Part shown: piece after piece, positions 5,144 to 8,197 of the stretch
Position numbering within the stretch: the stretch's first letter is position 1
How the letters are laid out: every line of letters begins with the position of its first letter
Made by a program: the position numbers and the translations under genes
Notes under the pieces: model-generated
Database searches by the model: none
What the model saw: only the letters and a program-made list of their open reading frames with translations
Told to the model about the DNA's origin: nothing
Origin: Acidobacteriota bacterium
GTDB lineage: Bacteria; Acidobacteriota; Terriglobia; Terriglobales; Acidobacteriaceae
Direction: 5' to 3'
Length of the DNA stretch: 8,197 bases
Assembly: GCA_021781255.1 (NCBI GenBank)
Contig: JAJXXG010000697.1
Location: forward strand, 1 to 8,197

Positions 5144-5182
5144 ATTAACCTGATACCACGAATTCGAATATGAACACAAAGA

Positions 5183-5209
5183 AATGTAGGGAAGAGCAAA
5201 TTTAGTCAA
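5183..5209 (-). promoter_or_regulatory. Candidate sigma-70-type promoter for the glycosyltransferase pair
   Basis: Reading leftward, TTGACT (5204-5209) is followed after 15 bases by TACATT (5183-5188). The -35 box matches five of six consensus bases and the -10 box four of six, but the spacing is short. Transcription would begin near 5176, leaving a leader of about 33 bases before ATG 5143. If real, it rules out the upstream TTG and ATG starts of this frame. Weak evidence. Confidence 0.3.
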
Positions 5210-5272
5210 AGCTGAGGATCTGGGCCTGAACGGCAGGCTGCGATGCATGCAGCCTTCAAGAAGCAAATGTAG

Positions 5273-5310
5273 AGGGGGAGAACTGCGACTTGCGTCTCAG
5301 TTCTCCCCCT
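5273..5310 (-). terminator. Strong hairpin between pilin and glycosyltransferase genes, possible terminator
   Basis: A perfect 13-bp inverted repeat pairs AGGGGGAGAACTG (5273-5285) with CAGTTCTCCCCCT (5298-5310). Inside it, GAC (5287-5289) can pair with GTC (5294-5296), giving a nearly continuous stem with a four-base loop. It lies about 250 bases after the pilin stop and 130 bases before the next gene. In the minus direction the stem is followed by CTCTACATTTGC, so there is no proper U-tract. It could end the pilin transcript, block 3' exonucleases, or be a symmetric protein site. Confidence 0.45.
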
Positions 5311-5560
5311 AAGTAAAAGCGAGAGTTCCGACCTCACCTACGCACCGTTTAGCCTTGGTTCGAGGTTAGGGCAGCGCCTCGTAACATCCATCTTGATGAC
5401 TGCAGCGAGCAGATCATCAACTCTTCCTGCCGACCCGCAAGCAGAGCGTTTACTCTGATGTGGGTGTTAGGGATTGCCTCGACGGCTTCAGCCAGACTTC
5501 GTCGGCTTGGCGCGTATAGGCAAGCGTTGGGCCTGGCCTCTCGGCAAGGCTGACTCGGGC
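5311..5560. other. Non-coding stretch downstream of the pilin gene
   Basis: I find no convincing gene in these 250 bases. Frames that cross it have no ribosome binding site and no recognisable protein. Several short self-complementary pieces occur, for example CGACG/CGTCG arms near 5478-5505, as well as the hairpin behind the pilin stop that is listed separately. A TTCGAGG run near 5360 recalls a tRNA T-loop, but no matching stems or acceptor arm surround it. It may be the 3' untranslated part of the pilin mRNA. Confidence 0.5.
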
Positions 5561-5570
5561 CTAGGCCAGT
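5531..5570 (-). other. Hairpin(s) at the pilin stop codon and just after it
   Basis: On the minus strand GCCTTGCC-GAGA-GGCCAGGC (5531-5550) forms an 8-position stem with one mismatch and a GNRA-type GAGA tetraloop, beginning 10 bases after the pilin TAG. The arm AGGCCAG can instead pair with CTGGCCT, which overlaps the last pilin codons, and a GGCCTAGGCC palindrome sits on the stop itself (5558-5567). No U-run follows. A stable 3' structure could protect an abundant pilin mRNA; this role is inference. Confidence 0.4.
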
Positions 5571-5758
5571 GCAGTCGAGAGCACAGAGCTGATGGACTTG
5601 AAGGCGTCGTTGATTTCGGTGGCGAGAAGGCCCATGCCGGCAGTTGCGCCCAGAGCGATGATGGCCACGACGAGAGCGTACTCGACCAGGTCCTGGCCTT
5701 CTTCACGCTCAACAAGGTTCTTCAGATTGAAATACATCTTGAGCATCAGATTGTTCAT
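5561..5758 (-). CDS. flp: Flp/Fap-type type IVb prepilin (major pilin candidate)
   Basis: A 65-residue prepilin of the Tad/Flp class. A charged leader (residues 1-21, ending REEG) is followed by QDLVEYALVVAIIALGATAG, the class-typical hydrophobic stretch. The expected prepilin peptidase cut is between G21 and Q22, which puts glutamate at mature position +5 (E26) and tyrosine at +6 (Y27), the Flp signature. The mature subunit would be about 44 residues: one long hydrophobic helix plus a short C-terminal segment (INDAFKSISSVLSTALA). Subunits assemble into thin adhesive pili extruded through a secretin such as the one encoded at 6769-8197. The ATG has an AGGAG ribosome binding site (5769-5773), 10 bases ahead. 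It is preceded by a sigma-54 promoter and stands alone between long non-coding stretches, so it is probably a separate transcript. The closely related function of a minor pilin cannot be excluded. Confidence 0.93.
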   Translation of the reverse strand: MNNLMLKMYFNLKNLVEREEGQDLVEYALVVAIIALGATAGMGLLATEINDAFKSISSVLSTALA

Positions 5759-5768
5759 TTGTCACTAT

Positions 5769-5773
5769 CTCCT
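5769..5773 (-). promoter_or_regulatory. Ribosome binding site of the pilin gene
   Basis: AGGAG on the minus strand, 10 bases ahead of the ATG at 5758. It supports this start rather than the internal ATGs at residues 5 and 8. Confidence 0.75.
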
Positions 5774-5819
5774 ATGTTTTTTCGATTTTTCGAGCCGCAG
5801 GCAGCGGTACCCGATTAGT

Positions 5820-5835
5820 AGCAAGTATAGTGCCA
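5820..5835 (-). promoter_or_regulatory. Sigma-54 (RpoN) -24/-12 promoter of the pilin gene
   Basis: The minus strand reads TGGCAC-TATAC-TTGCT. It matches the RpoN consensus TGGCAC-N5-TTGC(A/T) at every defined position, with exactly ten bases between the invariant GG and GC. Transcription should start near 5809, giving a leader of about 50 bases with the AGGAG site near its end. Sigma-54 promoters need an ATP-dependent activator bound upstream, and candidate sites for one are present at 5899-5964. Control of pilin genes by sigma-54 is known in other bacteria (for example pilA of Pseudomonas and Myxococcus). Confidence 0.85.
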
Positions 5836-5898
5836 TTCTTAAGTTTTGCACCATATCATTAAGAATGAATGAGTTCCGCTTTGAGGAGTCTAATGGGA

Positions 5899-5964
5899 GT
5901 GTAAACTGGTGTATACACCTCGCGTGGTGGCGACTTGCTCACGTATACATGACACAAAAGTGTA
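5899..5964. promoter_or_regulatory. Cluster of GTGTA/TACAC half-sites, candidate activator (enhancer) binding region
   Basis: Within 66 bases there are GTGTA at 5899-5903, the perfect 12-base palindrome GGTGTATACACC at 5908-5919, GTATAC at 5943-5948, and ACAC-AAAA-GTGT at 5952-5963. The first two also make TGTAAA-N6-TATACA (5900-5917), one base off a TyrR-type box; TyrR belongs to the enhancer-binding protein family. The cluster lies about 90-155 bases upstream of the predicted sigma-54 start, the usual distance for such activators. The repeats are directly seen; the binding protein is unknown. Confidence 0.5.
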
Positions 5965-6199
5965 AGATGTTGATTCGTTGAAATATGCAAGCGATACGGC
6001 TGTTGAATTTCTTGCGGTTCGGAGTGCGCGGCTTTTTGAGAATGCCGGGTGAAGCAAGGAGTCATATGCTGACTGGCCCGGGCCTGTCTGTTGGAAGTGT
6101 CGGGGGATGATTGTGCGGTCGCATGAGCAGGGATTGCGGAACGTATAGCCACTGCGGTTTGGTCCAGAACTCTTGCTGCAGGATGCCCTGGTTTGTGCC
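5965..6199. other. Non-coding stretch between the DUF192 gene and the pilin control region
   Basis: I see no gene here. Minus-strand frames that span it overlap the DUF192 gene in another frame, lack a ribosome binding site and have a composition unlike a real protein. A GGCCCGGGCC palindrome lies at 6075-6084. No T-run terminator for the DUF192 gene is apparent. Confidence 0.5.
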
Positions 6200-6586
6200 C
6201 TAAGGCGCAGGGCTGAACTCCAGGATATCCCCTGGCTGAGTCTGCGTGTCGCGGATGGTGCCGGCAGGAAGCTCAATGATCGAGTGTGCAACGAGACAGG
6301 CCGACAGACGCCAGGGTGGCACATTGCTGCGCACTTTTTTTACCTGATGCTTGCGGTCTAGATAGACGAGGTCAAGCGGGAATCGCATGAAGAAGGTATG
6401 CACCGCCTCGCAGGGCACGATCCACATTCCTTCGCCAGGCGCCAGCCCTTTGCGTCCGAGCAGCCCTTTTGAGCGCCTCGCGCCGCTGCCGGCGATCTCC
6501 AGGTTTGTGGCCAGCATAGTCTTTCGGCTTGTGTTCACAACCCGAAGCTGAGTCTTATTTTCAGGTAGCCCCTTTGGAAGTTCCAT
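6200..6586 (-). CDS. DUF192 family protein
   Basis: This 128-residue protein covers the whole DUF192 domain. In order it shows SKGLLGRKGLAPGEGMWIVP (39-58), the core CEAVHTFFMRFPLDLVYLD (59-77), VPPWR (89-93), IIELPAGT (103-110) and a closing QPGDILEF (117-124). The family folds as a small beta-barrel; its biochemical role is not established. Many members carry a signal peptide or lipobox, but this one has neither, so it is probably cytoplasmic unless the start is wrong. The ATG is supported by GAGGAG (6591-6596) with 4-base spacing. It sits between the secretin terminator and the pilin promoter, so it is likely a separate short transcript, though no clear promoter stands out at 6600-6675. 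Proximity hints at a link to the pilus, but this is only guilt by association. Confidence 0.88.
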   Translation of the reverse strand: MELPKGLPENKTQLRVVNTSRKTMLATNLEIAGSGARRSKGLLGRKGLAPGEGMWIVPCEAVHTFFMRFPLDLVYLDRKHQVKKVRSNVPPWRLSACLVAHSIIELPAGTIRDTQTQPGDILEFSPAP

Positions 6587-6674
6587 CGTGCTCCTCGTGT
6601 TCTTCTTTGTTATTCGGGTGTGTCATCGCTACAGCGAATAGAAAGGCGCATGGGTAAGTGGCGATTGTTGGCCG

Positions 6675-6707
6675 CAAAACAGGAGCCCCGCTTTGTTGGC
6701 GGGGCTC
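6675..6707 (-). terminator. Rho-independent terminator of the secretin gene
   Basis: On the minus strand GAGCCCCGC (6699-6707) and GCGGGGCTC (6683-6691) form a perfect 9-bp GC-rich stem with a 7-base loop. CTG and TTTT follow (6675-6678). It lies 62 bases after the secretin stop and separates that transcript from the DUF192 gene. Confidence 0.8.
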
Positions 6708-6768
6708 ACGCTGATCACGGTTGAGGAAGTGGTTATGCGCATGGATGTCTACTTCATGTTCGCAGATA

Positions 6769-8197
6769 TCACTGCGGCGATTGAGGTGACATGCCAGTCG
6801 AAGTGTAACCGGAACTGCCGCCAGAGCCGCCGGACAGCTGAGTCTCGGGCTTCATGCTGTCCATCAACTGCTCAATCGGCATGGTCGCGGGCGCGGGCGC
6901 CGGAGTAGACTCAGCCGTTTTTGCATCCGGTGTGTGCATTGGAGTGTCGGAGTTTGGAGGCAGGAACTGCGAAGGATATTTTGGAACAGGAATCGCCGTG
7001 CCTGCCGGCGCGGGTGCAACGATCTCAGGAGTCACGATGACAATGAGCTCGCTATTGGTCCGGGTCTTTGATGTTGACTGGAAAAACTTGCCAAGAATCG
7101 GAATGTCCCCAAGGAAGGGAATCTTCTGGAAAGTTTCAGTATCGCGGTTGTCGAGCAACCCGCCGATGGCAAAGCTTTGCCCATCGCCCAGCTCAACCTC
7201 TGTCTTTACCCTGCGAACGGAGATTGCGGGCTCCAAGAAACCGGAAATCTCGACCGCATTCGTGAAGTCCAGTGCGCTGACTTCAGGGGCAACCTGCAGA
7301 CGAATGGTTCCGCGCGGAGTGATCGTGGGGATAAAATTCAGGCGAACGCCGTACTGCTGGAACATAATCGTAACCGCTGCGGCTCCGCCGATTCCCCCAC
7401 CCTGAACCATGGGGAACGGATATTCTCCGCCGGCGAGGAAGCTGGCCTGCTTGCCGTTTTCCGCAAGCACGTTGGGTTCAGCAAGTATCTGCACGAGCCC
7501 TTTTTGCTCCAAAGCCTGGATTGTTGCACCCAGGTTGATGCCCGGATAAAAGGCAAAGAGGTTAAGCTCGTTTGACAATGACGCCGTGGCGCCTCCGGCC
7601 CCGGTGCCAGCAGTAACGAATGGCGGGGAGAACTGACCCGTTGAAATCTGGCCAATGGTATTTCCAAACCCTGTACTGAAGAGGTTCATGCCAAGCTGCA
7701 GGCTCTTGTTGCGATCCACGCTGGCAAAGCGCACCTTGAGCAGGATTTGCCGTTCAGGAGCCGGCACATTGACGTTGAGCAGGTTGACGATCTTGCCTTT
7801 CGTGCCCGTGGACGCGATCTGCACGGCCCGGTTGGAACTGTTTAGATCTTTCACCGTCCCGCGGAGAAAGAGATTGCCGTTTTCTTCGCTGATCCTGAGG
7901 TCCTGCCCGGGGAGTTCTGCTCTCAGCTCGCGCCGGATGCCCGTCAGTAGGTCGTTGGTTGCAAACGTGCTGGGCCTGACCGTGACGTTGAAGAACTGAC
8001 GGCCGCCGCTGACGTCCCAAAGGATCAGAGTGGTTTCGCCGGGAGCCTTCCCATTTACCAGGACCTGGGTCGGGCTCACGACGGTCGCCTCTGCGATGTC
8101 ACCCAGACCGACAACGACCTGCTTTACAGGACGGGCAAGATCGAGGACCACCGATTTGCCGACGGCCACTGACAGGTCGTTTGCGGTGTCCTGGCTG
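6769..8197 (-). CDS. cpaC: Type II/IV secretion secretin of the Tad/Flp pilus (CpaC/RcpA-like), 5' end outside window
   Basis: Outer-membrane secretin forming the ring through which Flp pili leave the cell. The 475 visible residues open at the window edge; the signal peptide and start are missing. GTG at 8169 is internal, because the preceding in-frame residues (DTANDLS) already fit the family's first domain. Domains in visible numbering: pilus-assembly N-terminal domain about 5-75 (VAVGKSVVLDL, VLVNGKAPGETTLILWD), a BON-like domain about 80-142 (ISEENGNLFLRGTV), then the secretin core about 148-392. The core includes LVQILAEPNVLAENGKQASF, a gly-rich GEYPFPMVQGGGIGG segment of the gate region, the signature IPFLGDIPILGKFF (359-372) and ELIVIVTPEIV. 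A Pro/Ser/Gly-rich tail of about 80 residues follows. The usual Tad partners (CpaB, CpaF, TadB/C) are not in view and should lie upstream. The gene ends with a clear terminator. Confidence 0.93.
   Translation of the reverse strand, partial: SQDTANDLSVAVGKSVVLDLARPVKQVVVGLGDIAEATVVSPTQVLVNGKAPGETTLILWDVSGGRQFFNVTVRPSTFATNDLLTGIRRELRAELPGQDLRISEENGNLFLRGTVKDLNSSNRAVQIASTGTKGKIVNLLNVNVPAPERQILLKVRFASVDRNKSLQLGMNLFSTGFGNTIGQISTGQFSPPFVTAGTGAGGATASLSNELNLFAFYPGINLGATIQALEQKGLVQILAEPNVLAENGKQASFLAGGEYPFPMVQGGGIGGAAAVTIMFQQYGVRLNFIPTITPRGTIRLQVAPEVSALDFTNAVEISGFLEPAISVRRVKTEVELGDGQSFAIGGLLDNRDTETFQKIPFLGDIPILGKFFQSTSKTRTNSELIVIVTPEIVAPAPAGTAIPVPKYPSQFLPPNSDTPMHTPDAKTAESTPAPAPATMPIEQLMDSMKPETQLSGGSGGSSGYTSTGMSPQSPQ

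Follow-up and report, generated by a model that had tools for sequence, protein, structure and literature searches.

The window (the whole stretch of 8,197 nucleotides that was analyzed) carries on its minus strand a Tad secretin gene (CpaC/RcpA-like; positions 6769 to 8196; PF00263, PF13629, and PF04972) that is truncated by the window end, a DUF192 gene (6200 to 6586; PF02643), and flp (5561 to 5758), the DUF192 gene lying between the other two. The flp open reading frame encodes a Flp-type prepilin of 65 amino acids with a GQDLVEY motif. Its match to PF04964 was weak (E value, 2e−5; 24.7 bits, under the cut-off of 32.2). The Flp search returned 866 homologues out of 873 candidates, and PF04964 is annotated in the database for most of the 120 closest listed homologues (120 of 866). 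GQDLVEY, holding the G-X4-EY site, was invariant in the window Flp and in 37 aligned relatives drawn from the 120 homologues listed. A terminator-like hairpin 3′ of the secretin gene (6683 to 6707, minus strand) is weakly indicated, two such sites being present against 1.8 in shuffles. Downstream of flp, a perfect inverted repeat without a T run, AGGGGGAGAACTG...CAGTTCTCCCCCT (5273 to 5310), was seen by eye and is a possible end of the flp transcript.

A preliminary description had placed a sigma-54 promoter in front of the pilin gene. At that position, 5835 to 5820 on the minus strand, TGGCACTATACTTGCT matches TGGCACN5TTGCW without mismatches and with the correct GG-N10-GC spacing. It was the only exact match in the window, against an expectation of 0.03 from 200 dinucleotide shuffles of the window, an exact match occurring in 5 of the 200. 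Looser matches (≤3 mismatches to the sigma-54 consensus) were not enriched in the window (35 observed versus 48 expected). The flp ATG (5758 to 5756) lies 61 nt downstream of the box end. The usual −12 geometry of sigma-54 promoters puts +1 about 12 nt below the GC element, and by this geometry the predicted +1 of flp falls at about 5809, the start that had been proposed.

Two other features around the box were considered. A 9-bp inverted repeat over the −24 element of the window, CATTCTTAA...TTAAGAATG, was rejected, being absent from the relatives L001 to L003. In the leader, a possible hairpin (CCGC-TGCCT-GCGG; 5795 to 5807, minus strand) is weakly indicated by a sequence common to the window and L001 to L003 and by predicted folds. 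Across 45 leaders (L004 and L056 excluded), its pairing was found in 79.6% of cells versus 77.1% in shuffles, a level reached by 5 of 500 shuffles, and in 23 to 53% of cells in slid versions; fold z-scores of nine leaders ranged from −2.1 to +0.6. A leader RNA element is not claimed, as the covariation score was under the shuffle mean and both-side changes occurred in four cells only.

Box and enhancer architecture upstream of flp

A scan of genome contigs confirmed 301 flp stretches, of which the best 80 were kept, giving 78 loci with a bias to close relatives, all Acidobacteriota by record titles. Together with the window this made 79 sequences, 75 of them with 400 nt upstream (L011, L030, L075, and L077 were too short and were left out). 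A GG/GC box starting 60 to 90 nt before the flp start was identified in 35, 45, and 46 of the 75 at ≤1, 2, and 3 mismatches, respectively, compared with means of 0.03, 0.29, and 1.3 in 200 shuffles and with 0 to 3 in three shifted-window controls. The closest relative found was MAG REEB336 (L001), whose Flp is 95% identical and whose DNA shares ∼80% identity with the window over long aligned parts. At ≤2 mismatches, 30 of the 75 loci had no box; some of the boxless loci have a box at another flp of the same assembly or are second tandem copies.

This conservation bears on the possibility that the box is a chance match and that flp is transcribed by sigma-70-type initiation, the TATACT inside the box acting, for example, as the −10. 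TATACT is present in the window and in L001, but it is not kept in L002 and L003, whereas GG and GC are, and a simple scan of 5150 to 6800 on the flp strand passed no sigma-70-like site. Given also that the position of the box is conserved far above shuffles and that the box co-occurs with an activator gene (see below), such an origin of the flp transcript is extremely improbable.

Aligning the loci at the box revealed a palindrome above it, TGTAWAC-N4-GTWTACA. In the window this candidate activator site, termed UAS2 (TGTATACaccaGTTTACA; 5900 to 5917, minus strand), has no mismatches and lies 82 nt above the box. Among the 46 loci with boxes of ≤3 mismatches, UAS2 (≤3 mismatches) was identified in 45, the exception being L026. 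Its distance to the box was 79 to 82 nt in 24 loci and 90 to 95 nt in 21, with none at 83 to 89 nt; these two preferred distances are about one helical turn apart, as expected from the gain or loss of one turn. Enhancer sites upstream of the promoter in a preferred helical phase, characteristic of the sigma-54 class, were thereby found at 45 loci. Outside the 46-locus set, spacings of 84 nt (L076), 89 nt (L187 and L208), and 78 nt (L203) were also seen.

A second block, UAS1 (TTACACTTTTGTGTCATGTATACGTGA; 5939 to 5965, minus strand), is mostly conserved in the window, L001, L002, and L003 and includes the half-site TGTATACG, which lay 31 to 34 nt above UAS2 (≤1 mismatch) in 37 of 45 loci as a raw count without a shuffle baseline. 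Between UAS2 and the box, the window has a degenerate IHF-like site (GAACTCATTCATT; 5864 to 5876, minus strand) with two mismatches to YAAN4TTGATW, which we take to be the IHF consensus pattern. Forty of the 46 loci had an IHF-like site (≤2 mismatches) at 39 to 43 nt above the box, again a raw count without a shuffle baseline, and the exact pattern occurred in 19 of 75 loci versus 0.12 in shuffles. Two to three HU/IHF-family proteins per genome were found in all ten relatives searched. In Acidicapsa dinghuensis, two flp genes (L115:976 and L115:1794) each have their own UAS and sigma-54 box.

By itself, the palindrome is not specific to the flp circuit. Four of 10 relatives had a single copy of its exact form, in every case at flp, and the reversed control gave no match. 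In a 200-genome sample of the order, 16 genomes contained 23 exact sites, of which 10 lay at flp together with a box, 11 lay elsewhere, and 2 were truncated by contig ends; the reversed control matched in one genome. A scan of 297 genomes of the phylum gave 13 exact sites in 10 genomes, and since the sole one at flp was in L131, the bare palindrome is not diagnostic. In G489, G575, and G600, genomes without the activator, TGTAAACAGGCGTTTACA or a form one letter off was seen one to four times per genome away from flp (L167, L168, L169, and L180 to L183), and these copies are perhaps the operator of another regulator. At L170 (G554), a palindrome was followed 80 nt below by the box TGGACAGATAATTGCA at a place with no flp match; this pair resembles the tad-operon type described below.

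Exact palindromes away from flp in activator-less genomes, such as G489 and G600, would also suit a reading in which the site upstream of flp is the operator of a different regulator, either a repressor or an activator other than a bacterial enhancer-binding protein (bEBP), layered on a sigma-54 promoter. The arrangement fits a bEBP: the preferred spacings differ by one helical turn, the two sites are separated by about three turns, and an IHF-like site lies between the UAS and the box. A separate regulator of this kind is very unlikely.

A tad-linked activator gene and its co-occurrence with the sites

RpoN was found in all ten relatives queried, as were 14 to 21 Sigma54_activat family matches per genome, weak ones counted. 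In nine of the ten, a Sigma54_activat gene lies 5 to 23 kb from flp, and these nine are orthologues sharing 59 to 92% identity. The tenth genome, Occallatibacter savannae (L006), has no activator near flp, and no orthologue was found elsewhere in that genome; its flp has AAGCACAACACTTGCT in place of the full box and no UAS.

Orthologues were identified in 27 of 32 relatives' genomes searched, each as a single copy. A UAS-plus-box pair (UAS ≤3 and box ≤4 mismatches) was present at an flp gene in 27 of the 27 genomes with the orthologue versus 1 of the 5 without it (L016). The pair counted for G622 is that at L033, which belongs to the same assembly. With a palindromic UAS, 4 of 32 loci also showed a loose pair on the antisense strand; at L064, the convincing pair is the antisense one, and it serves a divergent flp. 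The loss of the GG/GC elements in relatives that keep the gene had been put forward as evidence against the promoter, and this was examined. Genomes that retain the activator gene retain box and UAS as well, and both are absent, together with the activator, from the close Flp relatives L004, L005, L006, and L020; L016 is the opposite exception, having the sites with no activator found.

In the 200-genome sample of the order, for which at most eight activator candidates were scored per genome, an orthologue was found in 39 genomes, 38 at ≥59% identity and one (G460) at 44%; G517 has two copies. Among newly fetched regions, a test that shares eight genomes with the 32-genome one, the pair was present in 22 of the 24 genomes having a clear orthologue, and none of the 34 loci of 33 orthologue-free genomes had it (Fisher, 4.9e−14, kinship ignored). 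The single G460 locus had no pair (0 of 1), and a reverse-strand control gave a pair in 1 of 59. G251 and G291 have the activator and the box with no recognizable UAS, and a lone two-mismatch box occurred at −100 to −40 in 4 of the 34 activator-negative loci. Most activator-negative flp genes of this sample have lower Flp-model scores and are probably paralogues, and the test is therefore inflated. In the order of KBS 96, which we take to be Bryobacterales, 29 flp loci that had been found were scanned, and the pair was identified in five (L138, L139, L142, L143, and L147), L138 being the same place as L064.

The activator read in the relatives (L111:150-1547) has an AAA+ sigma-54 interaction domain and lid (PF00158; E value, 7e−68), and this AAA+ domain with a GAFTGA-type loop places it among the NtrC-family bEBPs. 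The contact loop itself reads GAFTGT rather than GAFTGA and was invariant in 27 aligned close homologues; more distant orthologues have GAYTGT (L117) or GAFTGS (L115). Its AAA+ domain aligns with those of ZraR (1ojl) and NtrC1 (1ny5 and 4l4u), and the alignment to NtrC1 (4l4u) extends over the receiver and C-terminal parts as well. No Pfam helix-turn-helix match was identified in the activator at an E value of 1e−3; its C-terminal part aligns to ZraR and NtrC1 and contains a stretch (NKTLAARSL-ISRAYLHRL) that is nearly invariant in nine orthologues.

In the receiver-like domain, the phospho-accepting Asp of NtrC1 is kept, and the Thr and Lys are replaced by Ala and Arg. All 27 close homologues have the Ala and nearly all the Arg; of nine orthologues at greater distance, one had Val at the Thr position and one (L117) kept the Lys. 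A match to PF00072 was found in one of three orthologues, under the cut-off, and 4 of the 120 activator homologues listed have a precomputed one, a difference from ZraR and NtrC1. A canonical phosphorylatable receiver domain was not found in the tad-linked activator. No kinase domain was detected in the eight genes scanned beside it, one of which had a Pfam match (DUF1453) and seven none. Because the phospho-switch of the receiver-like domain lacks its Thr and, in most cases, its Lys, it is tentatively proposed that the activator is not a classical two-component regulator and may sense something else, such as c-di-GMP, which is sensed by FleQ, or the assembly state of the pilus. If so, Tad piliation would be governed by a sigma-54 switch that needs no kinase and serves one appendage alone.

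With 14 to 21 Sigma54_activat matches per genome, and with L016 having the sites and no tad-linked activator found in its genome, a real sigma-54 promoter at flp might respond to another bEBP. The tad-linked orthologue, however, is single copy in 27 genomes (two in G517), tracks the presence and absence of the sites, lies close to flp in nine of ten genomes, and has a C-terminal stretch that, like the UAS, is nearly invariant. Control by a different bEBP is rated very improbable.

Further promoters of the tad cluster

A second UAS (two mismatches) followed by a box of the type TGGAGGGACAATTGCT (two to three mismatches) was identified in relatives before the peptidase-tadZ-tadA-tadB-tadC genes in eight of nine activator-bearing genomes. 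The two were 77 to 80 nt apart in seven of these genomes and 100 nt apart in L119, pairs being counted without a shuffle baseline. In L110 the box is present and the UAS is degenerate, so that the box itself was found in all nine activator-bearing genomes examined. Pfam matches confirmed the peptidase in L111 and, in L109, TadZ, TadA, and two TadB/C-like proteins; the first gene was recognized by eye in the other genomes and was not identified in L116. Inside the tad cluster of the closest relative lies a gene for a PilZ-domain protein (L109:6166-7290), a possible c-di-GMP effector.

The cpaB and tadZ promoters were read in relatives, the window stopping inside the secretin gene. Before the cpaB-secretin unit, a UAS-plus-box pair at 79 nt was present in L115 and L116 and doubtful in L118 (UAS with five mismatches). 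The pair was sought and not found in L109, L110, L111, L112, L114, and L120, and no cpaB was found in L117. Lone boxes occur upstream of cpaB in L110 (−355), L112 (−70), and L120 (−363), and TGCTATACT, common to L109 to L111, L114, and L120, resembles by eye an extended −10. The suggestion that sigma-54 control would uncouple pilin supply from the secretin unit is thus half supported: it agrees with the three closest relatives of the window (L109 to L111), where cpaB-secretin has no pair, and it does not hold in L115 and L116; moreover, the peptidase-tadZABC genes have the box in all nine activator-bearing genomes and paired sites in eight.

The predicted circuit and related systems

Comparison among relatives, through the conserved box and UAS sites, the preferred spacings, and the co-occurring activator gene, strongly supports sigma-54 control of the pilin, and the second promoter is likewise seen in the relatives. 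On this basis, flp very probably has a sigma-54 promoter with an enhancer circuit driven by the tad-linked NtrC-family activator. Sigma-54 RNA polymerase would transcribe flp from the box at 5835 to 5820, so that flp mRNA would depend on sigma-54, and the gene would stay silent until the activator, whose gene in relatives lies near the tad cluster, has assembled on UAS1 and UAS2, ∼82 to 115 nt upstream of the box. A bend at the IHF-like site ∼40 nt above the box, presumably made by IHF or HU, would in most relatives bring the AAA+ ring to the promoter. For the window, whose own activator gene would lie beyond its ends, we infer the same from these relatives. The peptidase-tadZABC operon is probably under this activator, too, through the second sigma-54 promoter. 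Given the box and paired sites in that region, pilin and assembly motor are probably switched together, and Tad pili would probably be made in these bacteria only when the activator fires.

Among the matches listed in the open-access literature, none dealt with sigma-54 control of Flp/Tad in Acidobacteriota, and a term search of the main text of a sigma-54 regulon survey (PMC12316311) found no Acidobacteri-, pilin, Flp, or Tad. For Tad-type pilins, sigma-54 control already has a precedent in Desulfovibrio: according to the accessible text of PMC3333781, the sigma-54-dependent response regulator DVU2114 of Desulfovibrio vulgaris targets the Tad-type pilin genes DORF39640-DVU2116, the genes downstream resemble cpa/tad, and a pilus assembly operon is also targeted. 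By that published description, the systems are alike in placing a sigma-54-dependent regulator on Tad-type pilin genes; they differ in phylum and in the receiver-like domain of the present activator, with its Thr-to-Ala and Lys-to-Arg changes. The same text names PilR and pilA of type IVa pili in Pseudomonas, Myxococcus, and Geobacter (PMC3333781). In type IVa systems, too, a pilin gene is under sigma-54 and an NtrC-family activator, but the pilins that PilR controls are type IVa. PilR has a partner kinase, PilS, whereas no kinase domain was found in the eight genes scanned beside the activator.

Regulated tad/flp transcription is shared with Bdellovibrio, where the accessible text of PMC5430801 puts tad under FliA, and with Pseudomonas fluorescens PF07, for which the table of PMC9207406 records nothing for flp/tad under the rpoN mutant. 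According to PMC3767616, flp/tad genes showed no differential expression upon mutation of VasH, a sigma-54 activator related to the T6SS.

The present system is unusual in its degenerate receiver, in the tight arrangement of its sites, and in taking in the secretin unit only in certain lineages. For a phylum with little regulatory genetics, it offers a testable circuit of one activator, one site type, two to three promoters, and one appendage, which predicts when Tad pili would be made. Lineages without the activator and sites, or with the secretin unit in or out of the circuit, may serve as natural experiments on regulatory rewiring.
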